Positions 18,316 to 41,529 of a stretch of 41,529 bases of DNA are shown here, in pieces (positions within the stretch are counted from its first letter, which is position 1; each line of letters begins with the position of its first letter). The notes beneath the pieces were generated by a model that saw only the letters and a program-made list of their open reading frames with translations, ran no database searches and was not told the origin of the DNA. Location: positions 1-41,529 of IMG/VR virus record IMGVR_UViG_3300011118_000012; one strand, written 5' to 3'. The position numbers were made by a program, and so were the translations under genes. The DNA is from a virus.

Positions 18316-18663
18316 GTGGGAAGGCGAACAAGTAGTAGCATAGGTCTGATGCCAATTGTTATAGCGTTGTTTTTCGGATACAATTTATTTTTTGATGACG
18401 ATGATGATAAAGAAGTTGATGTTACAGAGGAGTCAACTGAAATTGTCGATGAAATCAAAGAGGTAATTGAAGATGTTAAACCCGAGATTCAAGAAGCAAT
18501 CAATAAGGCAAAGGAAATTTTGGCAGAAACGGCAGAAAAATTGACTAAAGAGGAAGGGGAAGATAATGAAAAACTCGAAAAAGATACCGAGAAAGACCCT
18601 CCCGAGATCGAAACTGATGAACCAAAACCGGAGGAAAAATCCGAAGAAGGAGTCGCATTATGA
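18316..18663 (+). CDS. Small membrane-anchored acidic protein, unknown
   Basis: A 115-residue protein starting with GTG, chosen because GAGGGGG lies 5-10 bases upstream and the overlapping ATG at 18314 leads to an early stop. One membrane segment (about residues 9-25, 'GLMPIVIALFFGYNLFF') is followed by five consecutive Asp and a long acidic, Glu/Lys-rich tail. The tail is predicted to be helical at first (~35-80) and then Pro-rich and disordered. It is first in the plus-strand cassette and overlaps the next gene by ATGA, so the two are translationally coupled. Function unknown; a partner or substrate of the radical SAM enzyme downstream is conceivable but unsupported. Confidence 0.6.
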   Translation: MGRRTSSSIGLMPIVIALFFGYNLFFDDDDDKEVDVTEESTEIVDEIKEVIEDVKPEIQEAINKAKEILAETAEKLTKEEGEDNEKLEKDTEKDPPEIETDEPKPEEKSEEGVAL

Positions 18664-18962
18664 TGAAAAAAATTCTCAAAAAAGCTCTTAGTATTTTAGT
18701 CAAGATTAACAACTGGGTGGACAGAGACACCGATAAAGAGACCACCTCAATCGTTACCGGGATTATCATCCTGGTGGGAATTTTAGTTTTACACAAATCA
18801 TTTGTATTCATCTTTGCTGCAATCATTATCGCCAATCGTGTTATTCACCGATTTGGATATTGGCGACGATGGGAACTCAGGATGGTTATGGAGGGAGTCG
18901 GTACTAAAGAAACAATTGAAAAAGGGAGTGAAGATGACGCAGAGGCCAAAAAGAAAGATTAA
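18660..18962 (+). CDS. Small membrane protein, unknown
   Basis: A 100-residue protein with a basic N-terminus and a hydrophobic region at about residues 33-60 ('SIVTGIIILVGILVL', then 'SFVFIFAAIIIANRVI'), probably two short membrane passes or a hairpin. A charged C-terminus follows. AAGAAGGAG precedes ATG 18660 (a second ATG follows directly). The C-terminal codons overlap the start of the radical SAM gene by 29 bases. It could be a small pore or holin-like protein, or anchor the enzyme at the membrane; neither is shown by the sequence. Confidence 0.6.
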   Translation: MMKKILKKALSILVKINNWVDRDTDKETTSIVTGIIILVGILVLHKSFVFIFAAIIIANRVIHRFGYWRRWELRMVMEGVGTKETIEKGSEDDAEAKKKD

Positions 18963-19956
18963 GTGCTTTATCAATGATGACTACGAAATCTTCTTTGATC
19001 CGTCAACTGGCGTTGAAATGATGAGGGGAGCAAATGGGAAACCAGATCCATTCTCACTACAGCTTCCCTCATTATTAGACATTGGTATAATGGGGACTTG
19101 TGTAAACAACTGTCCATTTTGTTATCAAGGTCATGAAAACAAACCGAATATGAAATTAGAAGACTTCAAATGGATCATTGATCAAGTAAAGCATCATACA
19201 AACCAAGTCGCATTGGGAGGTAGAGGTGATCCCAATAAACACGAGAACTTCAAAGAGATCATTGAATATGCCCGAAACAATAATGTCGTTCCAAACTATA
19301 CGACAAGTGGGATTGATTTAACAGATGATCAAATTGAAATCTCGAAAATGTGTGGTGCAGTAGCTGTGAGCGAATATCGAACTCCAGTTACATATGAAGC
19401 TCTCAAACGATTTATGGATGCAGGAGTTAAAACCAACATTCATATGATCTTCTCACAACCATCATTTGACGAAGCTGTCAAGATATTATATGGTAGTAAT
19501 CCATGGCAAGCCAATTCAACTGGAAAGAAAACTCTGGTTGATATTGATAGACTCAATGCTGTGATATTTCTTCTATTTAAACCAGCAGGAGCAGGAAAAA
19601 ACTTAATTGGCATGAGACCAACTGAATATCAATTTGGTATCTTCTCAAGTCTTATTTTCAACTCCAAAGCAAAGTTTAAAGTTGGAATGGACTCTTGCCT
19701 TTGTAATCACGTTTTGAAAAAGAGCACCCCTACCGAACTTCAAAAGTTATCAATTGATACGTGCGAAGGCGCCAGGATGTCAGGATATATCACTCCTAAT
19801 ATGATCTTTATGCCATGTAGTTTTGCAGAAAAATCACAATGGGGAGTGAGTCTAAGAAAAAAAGATATCGAACAGGTCTGGAATAAATCGTTGCCATTTA
19901 AAAGGTTCAGAAAAATGTTACATAAACAAAAGGACAAATGTCCACTAGAACTCTAA
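18934..19956 (+). CDS. Radical SAM enzyme with SPASM/twitch-like C-terminus
   Basis: A 340-residue iron-sulfur enzyme. The [4Fe-4S] cluster motif CxxxCxxC is seen as 'CVNNCPFCYQG' (C56, C60, C63), followed by a Gly-rich SAM-binding strand 'VALGGRGDPNKH'. The C-terminal third has further Cys at 255, 257, 277, 295 and 336, with 'CEGARMSGYITPNMIFMPC' resembling the 'C...G.i.PC' part of SPASM/twitch auxiliary-cluster domains. Known SPASM/twitch enzymes modify peptides and proteins (thioether bonds, sulfatase maturation, PQQ and mycofactocin). I chose ATG 18934 with GGGAG upstream; an open frame from 18802 would overlap the previous gene by 160 bases. The substrate is unknown. Such an enzyme is unusual cargo in a tail gene region. 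Confidence 0.85.
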   Translation: MTQRPKRKIKCFINDDYEIFFDPSTGVEMMRGANGKPDPFSLQLPSLLDIGIMGTCVNNCPFCYQGHENKPNMKLEDFKWIIDQVKHHTNQVALGGRGDPNKHENFKEIIEYARNNNVVPNYTTSGIDLTDDQIEISKMCGAVAVSEYRTPVTYEALKRFMDAGVKTNIHMIFSQPSFDEAVKILYGSNPWQANSTGKKTLVDIDRLNAVIFLLFKPAGAGKNLIGMRPTEYQFGIFSSLIFNSKAKFKVGMDSCLCNHVLKKSTPTELQKLSIDTCEGARMSGYITPNMIFMPCSFAEKSQWGVSLRKKDIEQVWNKSLPFKRFRKMLHKQKDKCPLEL

Positions 19957-19971
19957 AGGGAGGGTGTTGCT

Positions 19972-20340
19972 ATGAAGAAAGAGTCGGTACCGTTAACCAA
20001 ACCCAATTACATAACCGTCGCCGTTCTAATTTGCTGTGTCATTCTTGCGTTCCTCGGTGGTTACTTCGATCAAGAATGGGCCGAAAATATTTATATGTTT
20101 TGGTCCGGTTTCGTGATGTTCGTCTTTATATGTCTTGCACTTGCAAAAGCTAAAATCAGACCCATGAAACCATTGGTTGTTATGTACACTTTCAACCTTC
20201 TCACGTGCGTTGCTTTGGGATGGTGGTGGTTAGCTATTTTTTGGATTGCAACTCATATATGTTGTTTCTATGGAATACACTTATGGGATCTAGAATATAA
20301 TCCCAAACCTAAAAAAGATAAGGAGGAACCTGCAACATGA
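19972..20340 (+). CDS. Integral membrane protein, unknown
   Basis: A 122-residue protein with about four hydrophobic stretches: residues ~14-30 ('ITVAVLICCVILAFLGGYF'), ~42-60, ~68-84 and ~86-100, the last rich in Trp. A Lys/Glu/Pro-rich cytosolic-looking tail follows. GGGAGGG precedes the ATG. Its last four bases overlap the start of the CreA-like gene (ATGA). It belongs to the same unit as the radical SAM gene. No family recognised; a small transporter- or channel-like part or an assembly partner is possible. Confidence 0.6.
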   Translation: MKKESVPLTKPNYITVAVLICCVILAFLGGYFDQEWAENIYMFWSGFVMFVFICLALAKAKIRPMKPLVVMYTFNLLTCVALGWWWLAIFWIATHICCFYGIHLWDLEYNPKPKKDKEEPAT

Positions 20341-20816
20341 GAAAATACATTATCGCAGCCGTCATTATTTCTTTCTTGCTCCCAATCATCGCTTTCGCTG
20401 GTGTAAAGGCAGTTAGAATTGATCGGTTTGAAGCTATTGATAGGATCGGTCCAAACGACTATGATCTGGAAACTCTAAGAATTGATGATCCTGAAAATCC
20501 GTTTGTCAGCATTTATGTAGCACACATAATTGGAACCGGGATTCAATGGTCGGACCCAAGCAATGTATCAATTGCTTGTCGGTTAACTGGAAAAATTCCT
20601 GTTGATAAAGATGGAAAGCAGCTTATCAATAAAAAGACAAATCATGATATTGCTCACTTTCGGAAATCAATCGGAACCAAAAACATGAGAATTTCAAGGA
20701 GTTATGATAAGGGAAAGAATGTTCTTATCTATAATGTTTATACGACCAAGCTATTTGACGGGTCAATGAAACATTCTCTATCGGTTGTGCCATTGGGTAT
20801 GCCTTTAGCGCCCTAA
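20337..20816 (+). CDS. creA: CreA-like secreted protein
   Basis: A 159-residue protein with a clear Sec signal peptide (basic 'MRK', hydrophobic core to residue ~18, cleavage likely after 'AFA'). The mature part matches the layout of CreA, a periplasmic protein of unknown function in many proteobacteria. It has 'IGPNDYDLETLRIDDPENP' (CreA 'iGPdhki.veafDDP'), 'VSIACRLTGKI', a 'RSYDKGKNVLIYNVYTTK' strand, then 'DGSMKHSLSVVPLG'. Two differences are visible: the Gly-Gly-rich loop is shortened, and the first conserved Cys of E. coli CreA appears absent. It is the last gene of the cassette, just before a terminator. CreA in a phage is unusual and suggests action in the host periplasm. Family call is from memory of the E. 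coli sequence. Confidence 0.7.
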   Translation: MRKYIIAAVIISFLLPIIAFAGVKAVRIDRFEAIDRIGPNDYDLETLRIDDPENPFVSIYVAHIIGTGIQWSDPSNVSIACRLTGKIPVDKDGKQLINKKTNHDIAHFRKSIGTKNMRISRSYDKGKNVLIYNVYTTKLFDGSMKHSLSVVPLGMPLAP

Positions 20817-23830: not shown

Positions 23831-24682
23831 TTATTCTAGGAATGTCCCACAGTTGGGGCAGAACTTGAATGATGATTTTGACTTGACTCCACAAGAGGAA
23901 CAAGTCAGTTTTCTTTCAACCGTTACCGGTTGTGAAACCTTATTACCTGATTCAGCAAGTCCTTTTAACTGAATTACAATAGTAGCAAGTTCTTCTAATT
24001 CGCCAATAGAAGCATAATTAAACTGTTGGTTACATTCAGATCCTTTTACAGTTATTCCCTCATCCGCATTTGGGATATTAGAAATATTTTCTACTCCAAG
24101 AGAATCCATTGTAACATTACTGCTTAAATCCACAACGTTTCTACTTACAGGCGGTCCAGAAGCAGCCATTGCCACAGGCGTTCCATCATCTACATCCTTA
24201 CCGCCAGATGATGAACTATAAAGTGTATCATTATGACTCCAGTCAGGACTGCTATGATAAGTATATGTGAATGGACTATTATGATAGTGATGATGAACTT
24301 CCTCAATAACCTTCTTAATTTGAGGTTCAGGTCTCGGTTTTTCAAAAGCAAATTCTATTCTAACTAATCCATCATCTACTTTATCGCCTCTATGCTCACT
24401 AATCTCTTTCGTTTTGTTAATAAATCGAAAACGATTACGTGCAACATTTCCACGAAGAAATCCTTCTATTTCAGTTGATGTGTTTGCGTCAAGGATTAGA
24501 CTACTGTTATCTAAAACATCTTCCCCATCAATCGAAATGTTCACGGATGCTCTTTTTGAGTTTAGATTTTTTAGTAGAATGGTGTACTCGCTTCCAAAAG
24601 GTAGGTAGACGCTTCCATCTTTAACTCTGAGGATTCGTCCATTTGATTTTACTTCAGCTACGAATTGATCTTTATAAGTCAT
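23831..24682 (-). CDS. Phage protein with C-terminal zinc ribbon, unknown
   Basis: A 283-residue protein with three regions. Residues ~1-115 form a beta-rich domain with 'VYLPFGSEYTILLKNLNSKR', 'DGEDVLDNSSLILDA' and 'RFINKTKEISEHRGDKVDDG'. Residues ~125-200 are low-complexity His/Ser/Tyr-rich ('HHHYHNSP'). The C-terminus is a zinc ribbon, with C261/C264 and C275/C278 ('CSSCG', 'FCPNCG'). I have an impression of similar unnamed proteins in large phages, but no known function. AAGGAGAT precedes the start. A promoter-like motif lies 86 bases upstream and a hairpin terminator follows, so it looks like a single-gene unit. The N-terminal fold resembles a surface or decoration domain; that is a guess. 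Confidence 0.55.
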   Translation of the reverse strand: MTYKDQFVAEVKSNGRILRVKDGSVYLPFGSEYTILLKNLNSKRASVNISIDGEDVLDNSSLILDANTSTEIEGFLRGNVARNRFRFINKTKEISEHRGDKVDDGLVRIEFAFEKPRPEPQIKKVIEEVHHHYHNSPFTYTYHSSPDWSHNDTLYSSSSGGKDVDDGTPVAMAASGPPVSRNVVDLSSNVTMDSLGVENISNIPNADEGITVKGSECNQQFNYASIGELEELATIVIQLKGLAESGNKVSQPVTVERKLTCSSCGVKSKSSFKFCPNCGTFLE

Positions 24683-24793: not shown

Positions 24794-25381
24794 TCAAACT
24801 TCTCTAAAATAACGATTATATATTATAGTTTGATACCACGACTTATGCCATTCTCTATCTTTATTAGCTTTTGTATTACAAGAACCGCAAACCGTTATTA
24901 AATTAAAAGGACTACAATCTTTTTTAATATAATTAATATGATGAACACAAAGAGTATTTCTAGTTTTATTACACTCAGGATTTAAACATATATAACCATC
25001 TCTTTCTTTTATAGATTCTTTATACTCTTTATCTAACCATTGCTCACAATAAGGTTCATAAGAAGTTCCCCCTTTCCAATTTGGATGTTTATCTCCCAGT
25101 ATATCAAGTCTTTTTCTACCTGTTAAAAATTTACTGAGAGTGGGATTTTTCTTCCCATAATAATGATGGTTAATTCCAGAAATCTTTTTACTATGCTCTG
25201 GACGTTTCTTTCCTTTCCAATGACAGGTTCTACCAGTACTGCTTTTCTTAATTTTTTCTATAATATCTGGACGTTTCTTTCCTTTCCAATAATGTCCTTT
25301 TATATATAACGGAATGCCACGAGTTTTATGCCATGATTTAACTTCTATTTCTTTGTCACATCCACACTTGCATAAAGTCAT
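24794..25381 (-). CDS. HNH homing endonuclease with NUMOD-type repeats
   Basis: A 195-residue free-standing homing endonuclease. The N-terminus has short basic repeats of the NUMOD3 kind ('HWKGKKRPEHSKKISG' and relatives, residues ~30-75), which bind DNA. The C-terminus has an HNH domain: 'YICLNPECNKT', then 'LCVHHINYIKKDCSPFNLI' and 'VCGSCNTKANKD', with paired Cys for a structural zinc. It is strongly AT-rich and lies between structural genes with no relation to them, as expected for an invading selfish gene. GGAGG is 6 bases before the start. No intron signs are visible in the flanking genes. Confidence 0.85.
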   Translation of the reverse strand: MTLCKCGCDKEIEVKSWHKTRGIPLYIKGHYWKGKKRPDIIEKIKKSSTGRTCHWKGKKRPEHSKKISGINHHYYGKKNPTLSKFLTGRKRLDILGDKHPNWKGGTSYEPYCEQWLDKEYKESIKERDGYICLNPECNKTRNTLCVHHINYIKKDCSPFNLITVCGSCNTKANKDREWHKSWYQTIIYNRYFREV

Positions 25382-25448: not shown

Positions 25449-25478
25449 ATTAACCATAACACTTGGAGGTGTCAAATG
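25449..25478 (+). repeat. Leader direct repeat, copy 1 (with ribosome site and ATG)
   Basis: Thirty bases running from ATTAACCATAACAC through TTGGAGGTGTCAAATG. The sequence recurs at 26531-26561 with one substitution and one extra T. Both copies end in the start codon of a cassette gene, and each carries the ribosome site GGAGGTGT. Confidence 0.8.
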
Positions 25479-25703
25479 GCAGAGTCAAAATATTATTATA
25501 TCAAAGTTCAAAAAGCAGAAACCGAAGAAATTCGGGAACATGAAAAACTCGAAGTCAAAACTTCAATTGAAAATATAGTCTTGGCATTGGGTCGTTATGG
25601 ATGGATAACCATCAATTATCATCAGGTATATGAGGATGACAGCGAAACCAAATCAGTCCAAACATCTGTAAATTCTGAGGAGGTTGAACAGGAGGTAATT
25701 TGA
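25476..25703 (+). CDS. Small acidic protein, first gene of pilin-like cassette, unknown
   Basis: A 75-residue, soluble, charged protein with no membrane segment or known motif. The middle ('ENIVLALGRYGWITINYHQV') could form a small helix-strand fold, and the C-terminus is Glu/Ser-rich and probably disordered. The strong TTGGAGG ribosome site lies in the repeated leader. Its stop overlaps the TTG start of the pilin-like gene, so the two are translationally coupled. Function unknown. Confidence 0.55.
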   Translation: MAESKYYYIKVQKAETEEIREHEKLEVKTSIENIVLALGRYGWITINYHQVYEDDSETKSVQTSVNSEEVEQEVI

Positions 25704-26062
25704 GAAACCAAAAGGGGTTCACTCTGATTGAGATCATTGCTGTCCTCACAATTTTAGGGATCATGATCTCACTCGGTGCTTACAAGTTCATGAAAACTTC
25801 AGTAAAGGCAGAAGACTCCGTGCTCACTAGTGTAATTGTTGACTTGAATAACAGAGAATTAGAAGCATGGACAAACCTAAAACTGGATTCAGGGTGGACC
25901 TCCGATGAAGAAGTTTACAATAATCTTAACATTCTTGATTATGACTGGAGATCAAAAAATCAGGATGAAGGGATTATAATGATAAGGGACAAATCATTTT
26001 CCCTTAAACGGATAAGGTCTGTCCGAAACGCTTACGGGAAGTGGGAGGTGTTGTATGACTAG
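25700..26062 (+). CDS. Type IV pilin-like / pseudopilin protein
   Basis: A 120-residue protein with a textbook class III signal. A short basic leader 'MRNQKG' is followed by 'FTLIEIIAVLTILGIMISLG', giving prepilin peptidase cleavage after Gly6 and Glu at +5 of the mature chain. The hydrophobic helix that packs into the pilus core continues to about residue 28. The soluble domain (~90 residues) is small, closer to minor pilins or pseudopilins than to a major pilin. Start is TTG at 25700, preceded by GGAGGT. It overlaps the next gene by 8 bases. Processing would need the host prepilin peptidase, which is not encoded here. A pilin signal is rare in phage genomes. Confidence 0.85.
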   Translation: MRNQKGFTLIEIIAVLTILGIMISLGAYKFMKTSVKAEDSVLTSVIVDLNNRELEAWTNLKLDSGWTSDEEVYNNLNILDYDWRSKNQDEGIIMIRDKSFSLKRIRSVRNAYGKWEVLYD

Positions 26063-26477
26063 TATTCTTATGTATTGTGACAAGTGTGCGGCAACTCATG
26101 CGTTGCCTATTCAATCTGATAAGATGTCAAAGGGTGAATGTTCAATCTGCCATCGTTACACCGGCGCATTGAATGAGACCACTCGGGAAGTTAATGAAAC
26201 CCTTGAGTCAATGGATTTCGGTTCATTCAAGGTTGTCAGACTTCCGGATTTCCTTCCGGGTTTGAGTCCAAGTCAAATCCATATGGGTCATACGTATCAG
26301 GCCCAAACTCCTGAGTCGGTGATTTACTTCCCGACGATCAATGATGGAAATGGGCAGAAATCAATCATCATAGCCAACCCGAAATTGGGCGAGCAGATTC
26401 AGATTTTCTGGAAAGAGAAAATCTCGAAAAACCCGCCGGTGGCAAGAATCGATCTAAACGGTTCACCAGAAAAGTAA
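26055..26477 (+). CDS. Small protein with N-terminal zinc-ribbon-like Cys pairs, unknown
   Basis: A 140-residue soluble protein. Two Cys pairs, C8/C11 ('CDKC') and C29/C32 ('CSIC'), probably bind zinc. The remaining ~100 residues are Pro/Ser-rich with strands, without a recognised domain. It looks richer in G+C than the nearby tail genes. It is encoded between the two pilin-like genes, with a GGGAGGTG ribosome site inside the end of the preceding gene. It lacks a signal peptide, so it is probably cytoplasmic. A regulator or adaptor for the cassette is possible but not shown. Confidence 0.55.
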   Translation: MTSILMYCDKCAATHALPIQSDKMSKGECSICHRYTGALNETTREVNETLESMDFGSFKVVRLPDFLPGLSPSQIHMGHTYQAQTPESVIYFPTINDGNGQKSIIIANPKLGEQIQIFWKEKISKNPPVARIDLNGSPEK

Positions 26478-26487
26478 ATATCGCTGA

Positions 26488-26518
26488 TGGGGCATAGGGT
26501 AGTTGACTATGTCCCATA
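26488..26518 (+). terminator. Hairpin inside the pilin-like cassette
   Basis: An 11-base stem (ATGGGGCATAG with CTATGTCCCAT, one G-U pair) and a 9-base loop. TTTTT follows a few bases later at 26524-26528. It lies in the 81-base gap before the 64-aa gene. It may act as a weak terminator or attenuator, or protect the upstream message. Confidence 0.5.
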
Positions 26519-26530
26519 GGAGATTTTTAC

Positions 26531-26561
26531 ATTAACCATTACACTTTGGAGGTGTCAAATG
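26531..26561 (+). repeat. Leader direct repeat, copy 2
   Basis: Runs from ATTAACCATTACAC through TTTGGAGGTGTCAAATG. It matches 25449-25478 apart from one substitution and one extra T, and ends in the start codon of the 64-aa gene. A shorter relative (TGGAGGTGTTAAATG) precedes the PilX-like gene. Confidence 0.8.
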
Positions 26562-26753
26562 AAAAATTTAAATAATCTTAAAAGGAAAATGAATTGTATT
26601 CTTTTCCTAGTATTATTCATGACCGGTCTCATATGTATGTCTGGTGCATTACAGAGTGAGATAAACAATCCGACATTATCAGAAGTTAGAATTTTAGAGA
26701 TGGCGGAAATCTCTGAACCGCCAGACATGGAGGTGTTAAATGAGAATTCTTAA
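26559..26753 (+). CDS. Small membrane-anchored protein, unknown
   Basis: A 64-residue protein with a basic N-terminus (~10 residues) and one hydrophobic segment (~12-31, 'MNCILFLVLFMTGLICMSG'). A short acidic tail with Glu/Pro follows. The Cys at the end of the hydrophobic segment does not sit in a canonical lipobox (GLIC), so a membrane anchor or signal peptide is more likely than a lipoprotein. It has the second copy of the repeated leader. It overlaps the PilX-like gene by 14 bases, which suggests the two are made together. Confidence 0.5.
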   Translation: MKNLNNLKRKMNCILFLVLFMTGLICMSGALQSEINNPTLSEVRILEMAEISEPPDMEVLNENS

Positions 26754-27831
26754 AAGTCAGAACGGGTATGCAATTGTTGTGGCTCTTTGTATTCTTTGTG
26801 TTCTAACCCTTATCGGGACTACATCCATTAGAACAGCAGTCACTGAGTTGCAGATTTCCGGTAACTTCGTAATAATGAAGATGAACTTCTATGCCGCTGA
26901 GAGTGGTATAGCAGTTTCACCATTATGGGCAAACCACGAAACCAATTACCCAGAAAGTGAATGGGGTAATATTGATTTCATCGGGACTGGTACAGGAGGA
27001 TTACCGAATGATACCAGCTTCATCTTTGAAGTAAAACCTCAAACTAAAATCGATCCAGTCGATGGGAATTCTAAAGTTTTGAGGTATGGGGATCAGGATG
27101 GTGATTATTTAAATGAGGTTAACTTCACAACTGGTCCTCCCCTTATCATTACTGAAAGTCACGGCACTCATCCAAAGGGTGGCGATTCAGCAATAAGGGC
27201 AACTTACATCTACAGTCCTATCTTTATGATGCCAGATGCCGCGTTGCGAGTTCATACCAACGTTAATGGTAATGGTGTCAGTGGAAGTATTCTCGGAGAA
27301 CACAAATCGGGTTCAAGCTGCGGTGACGTCGCGGATATTATGTATGACGTTGAAGGTGGCATCATTGAATACGGTGGTGATCTTGGGGATACTCCATTGA
27401 TTACAGCATCAGGTGGGATGTATCCTATTCCACTGATCAAACCCTTGATCCTGAAAAGAGCTACCATTGAAATAGTTGGTAGTAACAACATTGATGAAGG
27501 TCCAATTGAATCTGGAACTTCTTCGGCAAATCCAGGTGTTGTTTACATTTCAGGAAACGCAAAGGCTACCAACCTTGTGGGTCACGGTATTCTCTTCGTT
27601 GATGGGAATATTGAACTTGCAGGTAGTCTTGGGTGGACCGGAATTATAATTGTGAGTGGAAACATTACCTTCTCAGGTGGTGGGACTAAAACAATTACCG
27701 GTGCAGTCATTGGTGGTGGGGACGCTGTCGCATTGAATGGGTCAGTCGATATTCAATATGATTGTGAAGTTCTATCTGATCTACATGATAACTTTTCAAA
27801 CTATCGGCTGACGTCATGGAGGCAAATATGA
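26740..27831 (+). CDS. PilX-like type IV pilus minor pilin / assembly protein
   Basis: A 363-residue protein. The N-terminal 60 residues match the PilX N-terminal domain: 'NGYAIVVALCILCVLTLIG' (membrane helix) followed by 'TSIRTAVTELQISGN' and 'MNFYAAESGI', the conserved 'n....A...AE.g'. PilX-type proteins are minor components that prime or adorn type IV pili in bacteria. The rest is a Gly-rich beta region with motifs such as 'GVVYISGNAKATNLVGHGIL', suggesting a repetitive beta-helix-like domain. The ribosome site is GGAGGTGT. It overlaps the 38-aa gene by ATGA. Together with the pilin-like gene it suggests a phage-made pilus module; its effect on host pili is inference. Confidence 0.85.
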   Translation: MRILKSQNGYAIVVALCILCVLTLIGTTSIRTAVTELQISGNFVIMKMNFYAAESGIAVSPLWANHETNYPESEWGNIDFIGTGTGGLPNDTSFIFEVKPQTKIDPVDGNSKVLRYGDQDGDYLNEVNFTTGPPLIITESHGTHPKGGDSAIRATYIYSPIFMMPDAALRVHTNVNGNGVSGSILGEHKSGSSCGDVADIMYDVEGGIIEYGGDLGDTPLITASGGMYPIPLIKPLILKRATIEIVGSNNIDEGPIESGTSSANPGVVYISGNAKATNLVGHGILFVDGNIELAGSLGWTGIIIVSGNITFSGGGTKTITGAVIGGGDAVALNGSVDIQYDCEVLSDLHDNFSNYRLTSWRQI

Positions 27832-27944
27832 GAAAACCTTACCTGCCCCCGAATATCAAAATTCGGGAACGAATGAGTTTGAAGTTCAAAATTGCAATGG
27901 TAGCAACCGCTATCCTTGTATCATACTTGATTAGCTTTATCTAA
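27828..27944 (+). CDS. 38-residue membrane peptide, unknown
   Basis: A short gene overlapping the PilX-like stop by ATGA, with GGAGG six bases before the ATG. The peptide has a basic, Pro-containing N-terminus and a hydrophobic C-terminal helix ('IAMVATAILVSYLISFI'). It could be a single-pass membrane peptide. A terminator follows 7 bases later, so it is the last gene of the cassette. Confidence 0.55.
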   Translation: MRKPYLPPNIKIRERMSLKFKIAMVATAILVSYLISFI

Positions 27945-27950
27945 TCAGGG

Positions 27951-28034
27951 AAGAGTGGGCCCATGCTGGTGGGGGTATCCGGAGAGGTCATCTCCGGACC
28001 CTACCCCAGTAGGGATGACTCCCACTCTTTTTTT
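27951..28034 (+). terminator. Structured rho-independent terminator of the pilin-like cassette
   Basis: An outer stem AAGAGTGGG (27951-27959) pairs with CCCACTCTT (28021-28029) and runs into seven or eight T residues. Inside is a second stem-loop with TCCGGAGA/TCTCCGGA and flanking GGGG/CCCC pairing. The composite shape is larger than a usual terminator and may include a stable RNA fold. Confidence 0.85.
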
Positions 28035-28036
28035 GC

Positions 28037-28954
28037 CTAGATATTTTTCCCGTAGTATTTCCCATTGAACATAAATGAACCTTCAATGATGATCATGGTA
28101 TAAAGATTAAAGAAACCTGTTGCCGGGAGATGCTCTACTATACCAAATCCATTCACCCAATGTGTCGGAGCATTTTTCTTGTAATCAGGTTCAATATTAC
28201 AGAGACAAGGCAAAGATGTTGCCATATGATAACCTTTTGAATCAACAGGAGAAATCTTTGTAAACATCTGTGGATTATGAACATGAGCATATGCCACATT
28301 TCCTTCAAATTCTTCTGCGTGTTTTTTGGCGTGATACATACCCCAATATCGTCCATGAATAACCATCAACTTTCCAACCCTATGCATCCCATTGAAAGGA
28401 ATTACTTTATATCCTCTTTCTTGTAATTGTAAATGATTATCAATATCTAAAAATCCTTCAAGTTCAGGATTTTCCTCAATATATGTTTGTACTCGATTCT
28501 CATGATTACCCATAATGAATGTTCTTCGAATATCAGTTCTGGTTATATTTTCATGAACTTTTAATATATCATTATTAAAATTATTATAATCTTTTAATAG
28601 TCTTTGCCCCTCTTTTAATAGAGGTCTGTTTTTATTCCAAAATGAAATACAATCCAATGACATTTGGTCTCCCATATAAACTAATTCATCTGGATCATAA
28701 TCAAAAATAAATTCATTTAAAACATCCATAGTTCTACCATCACAATGAGGATGATGAATGTCAGGCAACAGCACAGTCTTTTGAACCTGCCATGCTGTCT
28801 CATCAAAATCGGTTTTTGCTTTAGTTCTACGAATATATGAACCTGCATATCTAAGAACTGTTTTTTCAGTACACCCAACTACTTTCGCAATCTCTTTGTT
28901 CGTTAAAGCTGTTGTTTCTGCCAATTTCATTATTTCTGCTTTAAATTGTGACAT
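28037..28954 (-). CDS. Calcineurin-like metallophosphoesterase with N-terminal HTH
   Basis: A 305-residue protein. Residues ~1-42 look like a helix-turn-helix ('LTNKEIAKVVGCTEKTVLRY'). The rest is a metallophosphoesterase with all the metal-binding blocks: 'LLPDIHHPH' (D65, H67), 'VYMGDQ' (D96), 'FIMGNHENR' (N150, H151), 'VIHGRY' (H200) and 'AYAHVHNP' (H224, H226). Such enzymes act on phosphodiesters or phosphoprotein and nucleotide substrates; this one is unassigned. I chose the ATG at 28954 because GGAGG lies about ten bases upstream; a TTG at 28972 would put that site inside the gene. It is a single-gene minus-strand unit with a promoter-like motif ahead. The DNA-binding role of the HTH is inference. 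Confidence 0.8.
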   Translation of the reverse strand: MSQFKAEIMKLAETTALTNKEIAKVVGCTEKTVLRYAGSYIRRTKAKTDFDETAWQVQKTVLLPDIHHPHCDGRTMDVLNEFIFDYDPDELVYMGDQMSLDCISFWNKNRPLLKEGQRLLKDYNNFNNDILKVHENITRTDIRRTFIMGNHENRVQTYIEENPELEGFLDIDNHLQLQERGYKVIPFNGMHRVGKLMVIHGRYWGMYHAKKHAEEFEGNVAYAHVHNPQMFTKISPVDSKGYHMATSLPCLCNIEPDYKKNAPTHWVNGFGIVEHLPATGFFNLYTMIIIEGSFMFNGKYYGKNI

Positions 28955-28991
28955 ATTAATCACTACCTCCAAATGCTTATTTATATTGGGA

Positions 28992-35183: not shown

Positions 35184-38100
35184 TTACTCTAACTTAACAT
35201 TTTTTATGGTTATCATTTGTATTGGTTCACGCCATTCATCAATATCAGATAAGAATACTTTCTTAATTCTAATACTACATGGAGGAGAAGGATCAGGATC
35301 AGCTCTATATGGAGGTGCTCCACCACCACCTCCAGTAGGTGGACATGGTTCAAAACAATCTTCGTCATAGAATATCTTTTCAATTGAACAGACATCTGCA
35401 CCTGGGGTGATAACTGTTAGTTTAATTCTATAGTCTACTTTATATGGCCAAGAATATATAAATTGATCTGATGTACTATCACAACTACAAGCAAGAGCTT
35501 CACCATTTGAATTATCAAATACTTCCCAGAAGTACTGTAAATCTTCTGGTGGATAAACGCTGATTGATGTTGAATAGTATACCCAACTACATGACGGGCA
35601 ACATAATTCATCATCGACTTCTATTCTTTCAAAATCACATATTAAAGCAGCAGCTGATGAACTTGAACTTGATGAACTACTAGATTTACTGCTAGAGCTG
35701 CTACTTGAACTTGATCTGCTAGAGCTACTACTTGATGATCGACTACTACTTGAACTAGAGCTAGATGATGATCGACTAGAACTTGAACTAGAGCTAGAAG
35801 ATGATCTTGAACTTGAACTAGAAGAAGAGCTGCTAGAAGATGATCTTGATGAACTACTACTACTTGAGCTGCTTGAACTAGATCGACTCGATGAACTCGA
35901 TGATGAACTTGAACTAGATGATCTGCTGCTAGAACTACTACTACTTGAACTAGATGATGATCGACTAGATGAGCTGCTACTTGATGAACTTCTAGATGAG
36001 CTGCTACTAGAACTACTTGATTTAGATGAAGCACTAAATGATGAACTGGAGCTAGAACTTCTACTTGAACTAGATGAACTCCTTGAAGAAGAACTGCTTG
36101 ATGAACTAGATGATGATCGACTAGAACTACTTGATGAACTAGATGATGATCTACTGCTAGAGCTGCTAGATGACGAACTTGACGATGAACTACGACTAGA
36201 GCTACTAGATGATATGCTAGATGAAGATGAACTGCTTGAACTTGATGAACTAGAAGACGATCTACTAGAACTACTACTTGAAGATGATCTGCTAGATGAA
36301 CTAGAAGATGAACTCGAACTACGTGATGAACTCGAGCTACTACTACTTGATCTAGATGAAGAACTGGATGAAGATGAACTCGAACTTCTTGATGAACTAC
36401 TACTACTAGATGATGATCTAGATGAAGAGCTACTTGAACTCGATGATCGACTACTACTGCTTGAGCTGCTTGAACTTCGTGATGAGGATGATGAACTACT
36501 AGATGATGAACTACTTGATCGGCTACTACTACTTGAACTGCTAGACGATCTAGATGAACTAGAAGATGAACTCGAACTACGTGATGAACTCGAGCTACTA
36601 CTACTTGATCTAGATGATGAGCTGCTAGAAGATGATGAACTGCTGCTACTTGACCTTGAAGAAGATGAACTGCTACTGCTTGATGAACTAGAACTTGAAC
36701 TCGATCTACTTGATGAAGATGATGATCTGCTACTTGAACTTGAACTCGATGAACCGCTAAAACTACTGCTAGATCTACTACTTGATGAAGATGATCTACT
36801 ACTAGAAGAACTACTTATACTTGATGAAGATGAACTCGAACTGCTAGAACTAGAACTAGAAGATGAACTTCTGCTAGATGAGCTACTAGATGAACTGCTA
36901 CTACTTGATCTAGATGAAGACGATGAACTCGAACTTGATCTACTGCTACTACTTGAAGATGACGAACTACTTGAACTGCTTGAACGACTACTACTGCTTG
37001 ATGAAGATGATCTAGAACTGCTTGATGAAGATGAACTGCTACTAGATGATCTACTTGATGAACTGCTTGAGCTGCTAGAAGATGATCTACTGCTACTACT
37101 ACTTGATGAAGAAGAACTAGATGATCTGCTGCTAGAGCTGCTACTGCTACTTGACGAACTCCTTGAAGAAGACGAACTGCTTGAACTACTACTTGAGCTA
37201 GATGACGATCTTGAGCTACTACTGCTACTACTGCTAGATGAGCTTCTTGAAGAAGATGATGAACTAGAGCTGCTTGATCTGCTTGAACTTGATGATGAGC
37301 TACTAGATGAACTTCTTGAAGAAGACGAACTGCTTGAACTGCTTGAACTTGAAGACGATGATCTACTACTAGAACTGCTACTACTGCTAGATGAACTTCT
37401 TGAAGAAGACGAACTGCTTGAACTGCTTGAACTTGAAGACGATGATCTACTACTAGAACTGCTACTACTGCTAGATGAGCTTCTTGAAGAAGACGAACTA
37501 CTGCTACTGCTTGAGCTGCTAGAAGATGATCTACTGCTTGAACTGCTACTACTGCTAGATGAGCTTCTTGAAGAAGACGAACTGCTTGAACTGCTAGAAG
37601 ATGATCTACTACTTGAACTGCTTGATGAAGAAGAACTAGACGATCTACTGCTTGAACTGCTACTGCTACTTGATGAACTTCTTGAAGAAGATGATGAACT
37701 AGAACTACTACTAGAACTTGAAGAAGAACGACTTGAGCTGCTACTACTTGAACTAGATGATGATCTACTAGATGATGAACTTGAACTTGAACTGCTACTA
37801 CTACGAGATGATGAACTAGAACTTGATGATGATCTGCTTGAACTTGAACTACTGCTAGATGATCGACTGCTACTACTACTTGACGAACTAGAAGATGATC
37901 TACTAGATGAACTTGAACTACTACTACTACTAGATGATCGACTGCTACTACTGCTAGATGAACTAGAAGATGATCGACTAGACGAACTCGATGAACTTGA
38001 ACTACTGCTACTTGAAGATGATCTACTGCTTGAACTACTGCTACTACTTGAAGATGACAAACTGCTTGAACTTGAGCTACTACTAGATGATCTACTGCTT

Positions 38101-40988
38101 GAACTACTGCTACTACTTGAAGATGATCTACTTGAAGATGACGAACTGCTTGAACTTGAGCTACTCGAAGATGATCTACTACTACTGCTGCTTGAGCTGC
38201 TAGATGATGATCTGCTAGATGAACTAGAGCTACTCGAAGATGATCTACTACTGCTGCTACTTGAGCTACTTGAAGATGATCTGCTAGAAGACGAACTCGA
38301 ACTAGAACTACTACTACTAGATGATCGACTAGATGAACTGCTACTACTGCTACTTGACGATGAACTAGATCTAGATGAACTACTACTACTTGACGATGAA
38401 CTTGAACTAGAACTTCGTGACGAACTACTAGAGCTTGACGATGAACTTGAACTAGAACTTCGTGACGAACTACTAGAGCTTGACGATGAACTAGATCTAG
38501 ATGATGAGCTTGATGAAGATGACGAACTAGACGATATACTTGATGAAGATGAACTACTGCTACTTGATGAAGATGAACTACTGCTACTTGAACTTGAAGA
38601 TATAAATCGAATAGTAACATCTTCAATTCGAGTATCTACACAAGAAGAAGTAGAGCTTGATGATGAACTTCTTGATGAACTACTACTGCTTGAACTTGAT
38701 TCTAATGTAACATCATTGACCACACACACAGCAGTACAATCATTAGCATCCCAAACACTTGAAAGAATTATATGTCTTGGAATTGCTGAAACACTACTAA
38801 GAGTATGAGTTAAATTAGCTGTTCCATCGCCTTGAAAAATTCTATATGTAATACCAGCCGTACTAACTGCCTGAGATTCATTTTGTACTTCTACTTGCTC
38901 ATCATTATGTGCAATATATAAAGCACCATTAGGAGGACTATCACCTGTTCCTTCACTATTAAGAAGGTGATGTACTGCTAAATGTAAACTCTCAGGTTTG
39001 TGACCCCCCATACCACCATAAACAGTTGTATGCTCATAAGTTTGAGTTCCAGACGGTCTGCTTAGTTCTATACTTGAAGTAACTTGTGGTGGATGTTGAT
39101 GCATATCAGCCAAAGATAAACCAGAAAGAAAAGGTTGTACGGTTGCTTCTCCCCAATCCTGAATTTGTGCCTTAGCTAAAAAGAATCCTCCCAACGCAGG
39201 AAGATCATCATCATATAAAGCAAATAAATGAATAGAGCTTGTTCTACCAACTATTGCATCTACGACTGAAACAGAAGTCATATCTATTCCATCAAATCTA
39301 CAATATTCAACAGAACTTGCTAGTGTATTGTCTTCCCAAGATACAGCAATTAAAACTATTCTATCAGTACCAGTAGGTCCAATATGGATAAATGTAGTAG
39401 CATCATGAGCACTATCAGAACCAAGAACTCCACCCTCACTATCAATAGTAAGACCGTAGGTGACTCCTATCTGAACCCAACCCAAACTAACAAAACTTAA
39501 TCCATCATACGGAATAAATTCTATACTATCTAAACCTGCTTTAGTAGAAGCAGTTTTATAAGCAATATTTACACAATCATCACCAGGTATATATTTATCA
39601 ATTTTTATTTGGGCATTTTGCATTATACCCAATAACCATTTTTCTGAAACAGTAGAACCAGCAGGACAACCGAAGGTTAAAATTTCTGAGTCACCAGAAC
39701 CACTTATTGTAACATTATTATCTGTAGTCCAGTTACCAGAAAAATCCTCATCGAAATCTTCTTCAACTCCAGTATGATGCCCCCAAGTAACTGTACCTGG
39801 TGCAGCTGAACTTGAACTAGTTGAACTTGAACTTGAAGAACTACTACTTGATGATCTTGATGAACTACTTGATGAACTTGAACTAGCCACCTCAGCAGCA
39901 ATTAAAACAAGAGTTCGTTCATGTACTGTAGCTGTACCACCAGCAGTATTCCATTGAGTAGCAATTGCATCAGCAGAACCCACACCAGTTATATAAGCAT
40001 GTGTAGTATTAGGATATGAAGTATCTGGAGTAGAAGCATCTTGATCTGTGTTACGTTCAGAAGCAGCTATTGGCGTACCCGCATCAGTAAGGCGAGTTTG
40101 CATATCAAGGTTAGTTCCAGTATCATTCTCAATGCTTGTTGAGAAGAATGCTACATAATCATCAGCTACTCCAGCAGTAACTGTCATTCCTGTCATAGCA
40201 ACATATGTAGCAGATGCAGTTGAAGCATCACCCGTTGCAGTTGCTTGATAATAAGCAGGAACTTTTTGAACTACTAAAGTTCTTTCATGAGCATTAACAG
40301 TTCCTGTTCCATTACCATCACGCCACCTAATTTCAACTGTGCCAGTAGTCCAAGCAACGCCAGCAACAACACCCATTATAAATTCGGTATTAGGAATAGA
40401 AGTCTCTTGAAACTGTTCACGTTCAGTATGAGCTTGTTGTACTCCATTTACATAGATAGAAAAAGTTGGACGTTCACCAGAACCACCATAAAGAGAAGAA
40501 GAAAAGTAAACTAAATAATCGCCAGCACCAGCAGTTGGAGTAATCTGCATATTTGTCATTAATACATCAGTGGTGCTTGCGGTACTTATATCATTGACAG
40601 CACTTGCCTGACTTAAATCACTAGAGCTGACTTCCTGTAATGTTAATGTTCTTTCATAACAAGTCGCTGTTCCTGCAGTATCTCTATTCCATCTAATTTC
40701 AACTGCTTGCCCTGCGCCAACTCCTGAAAGATAAGCATATATAGATGAATTTTGCACTCTTGAAGCTATAGAACTTTCTTGATATTGTTCTCTCTCTGTA
40801 TGAGGAACAGCAACTCCATTTACAAAAACTTGATAGAATATTCTCGATTGAGAACTACATTCAGCAGAGGTAGTAAATGCTAAGACATAATCACCTGCGC
40901 CAGGTGTTAATGTCATTGAATCAAGCAACGCATAAGTCGCACTAGCTATAGTAGTGGTCCCAGTTGCCGTAGCTTGAAAGACAGCCAT
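35184..40988 (-). CDS. Giant modular tail fibre/adhesin-like protein with poly-serine tract
   Basis: A 1934-residue protein. Three tandem beta-sandwich-like repeats of ~118 residues open it (about 5-120, 125-243, 244-366; each ends in 'ERTL.L..V'). A Ser linker (~367-393) leads to a 'TWGHHTGVEEDFDEDF' domain, which the upstream gene also carries. A mixed domain with 'HQHPPQ' and 'YGGMGGHKPESLHLAVHHLL' follows. Next are a second Ser linker, the short 'CVDTRIEDVTIRF' module, and a Ser tract of about 980 residues (797-1777). The protein ends in a Cys-rich PKD-like domain ('QYFWEVFDNSNGEALACSC') and a Pro/Gly-rich tail. GGAGGAG precedes the start. Repeats, beta domains and linkers fit a receptor-binding fibre or adhesin; the exact target is unknown. 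Poly-Ser suggests a flexible spacer. Confidence 0.75.
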   Translation of the reverse strand: MAVFQATATGTTTIASATYALLDSMTLTPGAGDYVLAFTTSAECSSQSRIFYQVFVNGVAVPHTEREQYQESSIASRVQNSSIYAYLSGVGAGQAVEIRWNRDTAGTATCYERTLTLQEVSSSDLSQASAVNDISTASTTDVLMTNMQITPTAGAGDYLVYFSSSLYGGSGERPTFSIYVNGVQQAHTEREQFQETSIPNTEFIMGVVAGVAWTTGTVEIRWRDGNGTGTVNAHERTLVVQKVPAYYQATATGDASTASATYVAMTGMTVTAGVADDYVAFFSTSIENDTGTNLDMQTRLTDAGTPIAASERNTDQDASTPDTSYPNTTHAYITGVGSADAIATQWNTAGGTATVHERTLVLIAAEVASSSSSSSSSRSSSSSSSSSSSTSSSSAAPGTVTWGHHTGVEEDFDEDFSGNWTTDNNVTISGSGDSEILTFGCPAGSTVSEKWLLGIMQNAQIKIDKYIPGDDCVNIAYKTASTKAGLDSIEFIPYDGLSFVSLGWVQIGVTYGLTIDSEGGVLGSDSAHDATTFIHIGPTGTDRIVLIAVSWEDNTLASSVEYCRFDGIDMTSVSVVDAIVGRTSSIHLFALYDDDLPALGGFFLAKAQIQDWGEATVQPFLSGLSLADMHQHPPQVTSSIELSRPSGTQTYEHTTVYGGMGGHKPESLHLAVHHLLNSEGTGDSPPNGALYIAHNDEQVEVQNESQAVSTAGITYRIFQGDGTANLTHTLSSVSAIPRHIILSSVWDANDCTAVCVVNDVTLESSSSSSSSSRSSSSSSTSSCVDTRIEDVTIRFISSSSSSSSSSSSSSSSSSSSSISSSSSSSSSSSSRSSSSSSSSSSSRSSSSSSSSSSSSSSRSSSSSSSSSSSSSSRSSSSSSSSSSSSSSRSSSSSSSSSSSSSSRSSSSSSSSSSSRSSSSSSSSSSRSSSSSSSSSSSRSSSSSSSSSSSSSSSRSSSSSSSSSSSRSSSSSSSSSSLSSSSSSSSSSSRSSSSSSSSSSSSSSSRSSSSSSSSSSSRSSSSSSSSSSSSRSSSSSSSSSSSRSSSSSSSSSRSSSSSSSSSRSSSSSSSSSSSSRSSSSSSSSSSSRSSSSSSSSSSSSSSSRSSSSSSSSSSSRSSSSSSSSSSSSRSSSSSSSSSSSSRSSSSSSSSSSSRSSSSSSSSSSSSSSSRSSSSSSSSSSSRSSSSSSSSSSSSSSSRSSSSSSSSSSSRSSSSSSSSSSSSSSSRSSSSSSSSSSSRSSSSSSSSSSRSSSSSSSSSSSRSSSSSSSSSSSSSSSRSSSSSSSSSSSRSSSSSSSSSSSSRSSSSSSSSSSSRSSSSSSSSSSSSRSSSSSSSSRSSSSSSSSSSSSSSRSSSSSSSSSRSSSSSSSSSSSSRSSSSSSSSSSSSSSSSSISSSSSSRSSSSSSRSSSSFSGSSSSSSSSRSSSSSSRSSSSSSSSSSSSSSSSRSSSSSSSSSSSSSSRSSSSSSSSSRSSSSSSSSSRSSSSSSSSSRSSSSSSSSSSSSSRSSSSSSSSSRSSSSSSSSSRSSSSSSSSSRSSSSSSSSSSSRSSSSSSSSSRSSSSSSSSSSRSSSSSSSSRSSSSSSSSSSSSSSSISSSSSSRSSSSSSSSSSSSSRSSSSSSSSSSRSSSSSSSSSSSRSSSSSSRSSSSSSSFSASSKSSSSSSSSSRSSSSSSSSSRSSSSSSSSSSSSRSSSSSSSSSSSSRSSSSSSSSSSSSRSSSSSSSSSSSSRSSSSSSSSSSRSSSSSSSSSSRSSSSSSSRSSSSSSSSSKSSSSSSSSSSAAALICDFERIEVDDELCCPSCSWVYYSTSISVYPPEDLQYFWEVFDNSNGEALACSCDSTSDQFIYSWPYKVDYRIKLTVITPGADVCSIEKIFYDEDCFEPCPPTGGGGGAPPYRADPDPSPPCSIRIKKVFLSDIDEWREPIQMITIKNVKLE
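35658..38600 (-). repeat. About 980-residue poly-Ser tract with regular Arg
   Basis: Nearly uninterrupted serine, with an Arg every ~7-16 residues (about 80 in all) and a few Ile, Leu, Phe, Gly, Ala or Lys. Ser is written with both codon families (TCA, TCT and TCG; AGT and AGC), so the DNA is degenerate rather than a simple satellite. Arg uses AGA and CGA. The degenerate coding argues for selection on the protein and against an assembly artefact. Confidence 0.9.
39891..40976 (-). repeat. Three tandem ~118-residue domain repeats in the fibre N-terminus
   Basis: Each unit begins near 'STAS.TYVAMTGMTVT'-type residues, contains a 'YV..F.TS' strand and a 'V.G..' turn, and ends in 'ERTL.LQ.V'. They are diverged at DNA level. 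Repeat borders were set by eye. Confidence 0.75.
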
Positions 40989-41004
40989 TATACTCCTCCG
41001 TTAT

Positions 41005-41529
41005 TTATATATGAATCAATCTAATCTGTACCCATCCTAAACTTGTAAAACTTGTACCGTTATATGTTGACCATGAAGCTACTAATACTCCAAGCCCTGT
41101 GGTCGCAGTCCTATATTGAATTACTGGTGCCGGACCATACCCTGTTCCATATTCATCAATTAATATTTCCGCTTCTCCTGCTCCAAGAGGCCAAACTTGA
41201 AATGTAATAACTTGATCACATGATGTAGCATCTATATATTCATTATCATTTCCAGGTGTTCCGCCTATCTCCCATCCAGTTGTATTATCTGTAAAATCTC
41301 TATCATAATCTTCTAATACTCCTGTGTGATGCCCCCAAGTAATCGTACCGCCCACTGCAGAACTTGAACTAGATGAAGTGGAAGATGAACTAGATGATCT
41401 AGATGAACTAGATGACGAACTACTGCTACTCGAACTTGACGAACTACTGCTACTTGATGAAGATTCGATAGCAATATCTTCAATGATGGTGGGAATACAT
41501 GAACTTGCACTTGAAGAAGAACTACTTGA
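41005..41529 (-). CDS. Second modular fibre/adhesin gene (C-terminal part, cut by window)
   Basis: The frame is open to the window end, so the N-terminus lies beyond it. From the edge inward the protein has Ser runs, the short module 'CIPTIIEDIAIE', a Ser linker of ~37 residues with one Arg and one Thr, and then a 'TITWGHHTGVLEDYDRDF' domain of ~115 residues ending 'SLGWVQIRLIHI'. The first module and the WGHHTG domain both have close relatives in the giant fibre gene that starts 16 bases downstream. The two genes probably derive from one another and build the same appendage. A GTG at 41355 could be read as a start, but the Ser linker ahead of it is clearly in frame. Confidence 0.75.
   Translation of the reverse strand, partial: SSSSSSSASSCIPTIIEDIAIESSSSSSSSSSSSSSSSSSSSSRSSSSSSTSSSSSSAVGGTITWGHHTGVLEDYDRDFTDNTTGWEIGGTPGNDNEYIDATSCDQVITFQVWPLGAGEAEILIDEYGTGYGPAPVIQYRTATTGLGVLVASWSTYNGTSFTSLGWVQIRLIHI

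Follow-up and report, generated by a model that had tools for sequence, protein, structure and literature searches.

Among the minor pilins of bacterial type IV filaments, GspK and PilX have been shown or argued to lack Glu5, to occupy the filament tip and to initiate filaments, and PilX to be in contact with the tip protein PilY1 (PMC5207764, PMC7541494). ComZ, proposed to be the DNA receptor at the tip of the competence pilus of Thermus, is a pilin whose sheet accommodates an ice-binding-like solenoid; it binds DNA and a neighbouring minor pilin (PMC6561018). Phages also act on host pili: Tip/Gp05 of D3112, Aqs1, Zip and Pf4 pVII, for which superinfection exclusion has been proposed (PMC11656802, PMC11436027), are small inhibitors of PilB, PilZ and other parts of the machine. 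Pilins encoded by phages have been recorded in isolates and form a PHROG family (PHROG 3433); they include N_methyl prepilins such as the 'pilin' of Synechococcus phage ACG-2014f and those of Nankokuvirus G1 and Vibrio phage 033B. An earlier note on the DNA studied here held that phages usually encode inhibitors and not pilin look-alikes; this is accurate for the known pilus-acting phage proteins, but look-alikes do exist in ACG-2014f, G1 and 033B.

The locus described here is a gene cassette of a large phage that encodes two prepilins, a Glu5-bearing pilin and a PilX/GspK-type protein. The latter resembles the PilX/GspK core minor pilins (PF14341) in its PilX_N domain, Gly-1, missing Glu5 and large extra domain, but it is a phage gene found without the FimU/GspH, PilV/GspI and PilW/GspJ set and without a peptidase or ATPase; the extra domain of GspK is an alpha-helical insertion, whereas that of the phage protein is a predicted beta-solenoid. 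Because the cassette holds one partner prepilin at most, with none in some relatives, it represents a phage variant and not the bacterial core set. ComZ (Thermus thermophilus, PDB 6qvi) is comparable in having a pilin-like N-terminal part joined to a DUF3494-like beta-solenoid, a predicted tip position and another minor pilin gene in its cluster; it differs in being a bacterial competence gene with no detectable sequence similarity to the phage PilX, which is acidic. Similarity to the pilins of ACG-2014f, G1 and 033B is confined to the N-terminal half or less, and no PilX-type tip pilin was found in the records of these three phages. In contrast to the small inhibitors, the cassette products are filament subunits: none matches the Aqs1/Tip family in Pfam or PHROG, and the key products are exported-type prepilins. 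A minor-pilin operon on a plasmid of Gemmatirosa kalamazoonensis (NZ_CP007130.1) shares PilX_N and C-terminal solenoid repeats, with 34% identity over the last 97 residues, but it is a bacterial operon with several prepilins and is very distant (branch length 8.4). Finally, an autonomous type IV filament system has its own peptidase and ATPase, whereas neither prepilin peptidase (Peptidase_A24) nor assembly ATPase (T2SSE) was found in 12 related phage records, two of them >220 kb, in which the controls matched.

A plus-strand cassette in the late region of a contractile-tailed phage

The window, that is, the whole stretch of DNA analysed, is a 41.5 kb IMG/VR virus record and a virus fragment. 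Recognisable terminase, tape measure, baseplate and sheath genes place it in a large contractile-tailed phage (a myophage fragment), whose best terminase and sheath matches among named phages fall below 31% identity. The cassette occupies positions 25476–27944 on the plus strand inside a minus-strand late region, and the six closely spaced ORFs that the earlier note described there, between minus-strand late genes, are all present. Comparison of related contigs identified the flanking minus-strand genes as the boundaries of a cargo site, with a conserved phage gene on one side (23831–24682) and a conserved metallophosphoesterase gene on the other (28037–28972). A minus-strand HNH endonuclease gene (24794–25381), without a match in the syntenic loci L002–L005, was apparently inserted beside the cassette in the window; other HNH genes lie at the variable site in L056, L077, L089 and L149. 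Elsewhere in the window, a second plus-strand cargo cassette (18316–20816) encodes two small membrane proteins, a radical SAM protein, another membrane protein and a CreA-like protein (7.5e-13), and is kept at least partly in L002, L003 and L012. Positions 35184–41529 encode a 1934-aa repeat-rich protein, likely a fibre, and then a serine-rich (poly-Ser) protein that is truncated where the contig stops.

Four of the six cassette products are not prepilins, so that of the pilus cassette with partners proposed in the earlier note, the two prepilins stand, and the partners are not all linked to pili. The first gene, c2a (25476–25703, plus strand), encodes a 75-aa soluble protein with related small proteins in several sister cassettes and no Pfam, PHROG or NCBIfam match. 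The 140-aa product of c2c (26055–26477, plus strand) is a zinc-ribbon protein, and comparison of the site in relatives showed that genes of this type are common there also in phages with neither pilin nor PilX. The 64-aa product of c2d (26559–26753, plus strand) has one predicted membrane helix, and its gene lies directly upstream of pilX in close relatives. The last ORF, c2f (27828–27944, plus strand), could encode a 38-aa membrane peptide from a start at 27828 that follows GGAGG, a start at 27816 being less likely; it may not be a gene, because it was not found downstream of pilX in relatives. A DUF2572 match (0.0024, under the cut-off) was too weak and was set aside.

Expression signals accompany the cassette on the same strand. 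A motif scan identified a cassette-specific leader, GGAGGTGTCAAATG, at 25465–25478, again at 26548–26561 and, with one mismatch, at 26729–26742. In the 41.5 kb these are the 3 sites at ≤2 mismatches, against 0.21 expected, and they stand before cassette genes only; the leader recurs in related cassettes. The ribosome sites of the cassette genes are near-perfect, and a sigma-70 promoter scan performed no better than on shuffled sequences. A long hairpin ending in a U run (~27950–28035, plus strand; –50 kcal/mol, z = –4.4) resembles an intrinsic terminator and agrees with the strong terminator that the earlier note saw closing the cassette.

The Glu5-bearing pilin

Gene c2b (25700–26062, plus strand) encodes a 120-aa prepilin with the leader MRNQKG followed by FTLIE, which contains Glu5. 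Its start codon is TTG, where relatives have ATG at the same place. The class III prepilin signal recognised in the earlier note passes the cut-offs of both models that describe it: N_methyl of Pfam matches at 6.3e-9, exceeding its gathering score, and IV_pilin_GFxxxE of NCBIfam at 1e-7. All 13 pilins scanned match N_methyl, and all 13 keep Glu5. Conservation extends past the signal to the invariant residues N50, E53, W57, R104 and W115, and by sequence c2b is a member of a phage-specific pilin family that extends to further phages. The predicted model of c2b has a canonical helix (res. 9–64) and four strands. A search of the PDB with this model gave no significant fold match, so c2b is assigned as a type IV pilin by its GFxxxE signal and, for the fold, by predicted secondary structure only.

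The PilX-type prepilin and its predicted solenoid

Gene c2e (26740–27831, plus strand) encodes a 363-aa prepilin of the PilX/GspK type with a predicted beta-solenoid domain, a candidate filament-tip subunit. Its signal, MRILKSQNG/YAIVVAL, has no Glu5. The PilX N-terminal domain noted earlier is borne out by a PilX_N match of 1.2e-10, above the gathering score, and by matches in all eight aligned phage relatives scanned. Across nine aligned PilX sequences, Gly-1 is invariant and Glu is never found at mature position 5 (0/9). The identity of both c2b and c2e as prepilins is strongly supported. Both genes are under purifying selection, one near-identical pilin pair apart: dN/dS is 0.12–0.18 for PilX and 0.13–0.18 for the pilin in two diverged pairs, with 0.41 in the near-identical pair, where changes are few.

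An AlphaFold2 model computed from eight phage PilX sequences (pLDDT 83) predicts a helix (res. 7–64), a small sheet, a solenoid and a last strand (res. 354–362). Searched against the PDB by Foldseek, it retrieved ComZ (6qvi) first, with E = 7.5e-6, and then DUF3494 ice-binding beta-solenoids, the same two resemblances reported for ComZ itself (PMC6561018). In the order of its strands, the model runs from strands within residues 82–159 through the beta-solenoid to the strand at 354–362, which is compatible with a ComZ-like solenoid set between the penultimate and last strands of the sheet, but the global TM-score to ComZ is low (0.27), so that the placement of the domains differs or is uncertain. 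A PDB sequence search with a PilX profile gave no match, ComZ included, and a viral fold search with the model found nothing significant. PilX may be described as a ComZ-like beta-solenoid tip pilin whose fold and tip position are both predicted. By analogy with the Glu5-less GspK and PilX of bacteria, it is probably restricted to the filament tip, since it combines the loss of Glu5 with a bulky beta-solenoid.

The solenoid is the most conserved region of PilX, with 58–89% identity to the window across unrelated phages, as opposed to 40–60% in the signal and membrane part, which is among the least conserved regions. The ectodomains are strongly acidic (pI 4.1–4.5), with 35–45 Asp+Glu against 13–23 Lys+Arg. 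A segment at 27091–27117 (res. 118–126), GDxDGDYLNE, is mostly invariant across phage PilX and resembles a calcium-binding loop.

Distribution and mobility

Scans for a flanking gene and for the sheath gene yielded at least 80 contigs apiece, including records of 223 and 248 kb, and the family is therefore a large one of jumbo-sized phages. The PilX protein was found in eleven virus contigs. Within the window's own phage lineage, PilX keeps a constant position, bounded by the same two genes, and the search for the cassette in related phages that the earlier note had suggested located at least seven other contigs in which this site carries one of the two prepilin genes or both. Among 45 independent contigs that cross the site, 35 have neither gene, five the pilin only, three PilX only and two both; the window has both. 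The gap between the flanking genes in these contigs ranges from 119 bp to 3.1 kb, and the larger gaps are filled by other cargo, such as zinc-ribbon proteins, secreted-looking proteins and HNH endonucleases.

Two sister phages, L012 and L015, have near-identical cassettes, and pilX alone separates them. The gene that precedes it is 97% identical in DNA between the two, after which one sequence runs into pilX while the other continues straight to a terminator. Together with the syntenic relatives, this presence/absence pair rules out a join to a host contig, which the earlier note had named as one finding that would overturn its reading. Farther afield, contigs L006–L011 have no match to the flanking structural genes and a terminase identity of ≤24–25%, and carry PilX at 50–55% identity. 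Because these sequences are closer to the window than the PilX of two phages of its own family (37–38%), PilX seems to have been exchanged between phage lineages, as judged from these identities. Within this large phage family, the cassette is best read as mobile cargo. A few narrow motifs, used in two scans of GTDB genome contigs, found no close bacterial relative, and a plasmid search returned only Gemmatirosa.

A second kind of prepilin-like gene, separate from the cassette and encoding ~75–83 aa, was seen at L165:2794-3042, L166:2374-2598, L167:2361-2597 and L006:1883-2134. Its product has a signal helix and an acidic or polar tail but no head domain, and in all four records (the relatives of 248, 223 and 101 kb, and L006) an SbcD-like nuclease gene lies close by. 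Another virus contig (L210:4521-4973) encodes a PilA-like pilin with a classical start.

Discussion

Our preferred explanation, to which we assign a probability of roughly 0.55, is that the cassette either places a viral tip on the type IV filaments of the host or stalls these filaments, with the exclusion of other phages as the most plausible purpose. The phage would supply minor pilins to the host type IV filament machine, either a type IV pilus or a type II secretion pseudopilus. Since no peptidase or ATPase was found in the 12 related records, the host machine must process and assemble the phage prepilins. Entry into the host pilus machine, one of the fates considered in the earlier note, is the best-supported route, given also the invariant Gly-1 and the correct leader and helix. 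The host prepilin peptidase would cut both precursors after Gly-1, and the Glu5-bearing pilin would probably link the PilX tip to the host shaft, so that an infected cell would carry a viral tip complex in place of its own. A fixed complex of the two is not required, because pilin and PilX are often found apart. Incorporation into host filaments is probable; it presupposes a type IV filament system in the host.

Overproduced phage prepilins could instead stall filaments, as excess GspK does; adsorption of competing pilus-dependent phages would then fall. Overproduction need not reduce pili: in V. cholerae, pilus dynamics went up, not down, when the full set of core minor pilins was overexpressed (PMC13249403). 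Superinfection exclusion is the most economical benefit, because minor pilins can serve as phage receptors, as for JBD68 (PMC13170266), and other phages disable pili to exclude rivals (PMC11436027, PMC11656802); as the actual benefit we hold it at somewhat under even odds. The fuller proposal comes close to an even bet: a viral PilX/ComZ-like tip with its own linker pilin would replace the host tip complex and yield a virus-controlled receptor or adhesin, on a cassette that, as other genes for superinfection exclusion do, passes from one large phage to another unrelated one. Against a viral tip speak the pilin's lack of a PDB match, the ComZ TM-score of 0.27 and the small size and inhibitory action of the known pilus-acting phage proteins. 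A structural role in the virion is not favoured, given the invariant prepilin signal in both proteins and the strand opposite to the late operon.

Because the solenoid is so conserved, a gain in adhesion or aggregation is a serious rival, if a fairly unlikely one. The solenoid would be the ligand-binding part of a viral tip that binds a surface, a polymer or a neighbouring cell, and infected cells would attach or clump so that progeny meet new hosts. Its higher conservation across unrelated phages is what one would expect if a common ligand were bound while the helix adapted to each host, and tip pilins and PilY1 are proposed adhesins (PMC7541494); however, no ligand-binding motif was recognised in it, and it is uncertain what a lytic phage would gain so late in infection. 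Pure jamming, in which excess prepilins would tie up the prepilin peptidase or the assembly platform and so shut down every type IV filament, without a specific function at the tip, appears a little less likely still. It needs the helix only, yet purifying selection has conserved both the solenoid and the head domain of the pilin, although near-perfect ribosome sites and the decrease in pseudopili on XcpX (GspK) overexpression (PMC5207764) would suit it, and the headless prepilins encoded at other loci of related jumbo phages could work in this way.

The likeness to ComZ, the closest solved fold and a DNA binder (PMC6561018), raises the possibility that the tip binds extracellular DNA, which the infected cell would import to feed the phage with nucleotides. 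A DNA receptor is less likely because the ectodomain is so acidic; moreover, there is no sequence match to ComZ and the window showed no genes for uptake, and we regard this role as improbable. Chance capture of host minor-pilin genes that are functionless in the phage, or an assembly artefact, is very improbable and largely ruled out by synteny and purifying selection. The Gemmatirosa plasmid, with the same protein type in a bacterial minor-pilin operon, fits such a capture, but the site shared by several contigs, low dN/dS, exchange between phage lineages, the cassette-specific leader and the failure of the few narrow motifs to find a close bacterial relative in GTDB contigs all argue against it.

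A PilX/ComZ-type tip pilin was found in no INPHARED phage record, and we located no report of phage-encoded PilX or prepilins in the open-access literature. What is new here is phage cargo that would act on type IV filaments and is itself made of filament subunits; the described phage proteins acting on type IV pili are, as far as we found, all inhibitors. If the preferred explanation of a viral tip is correct, a phage-supplied tip subunit would be a different means of controlling an organelle that is at once phage receptor, DNA-uptake device and adhesin. The family would then be a natural source of interchangeable tip pilins with which to probe tip function, and would point to a further layer of virus–virus competition in the environments of these phages.
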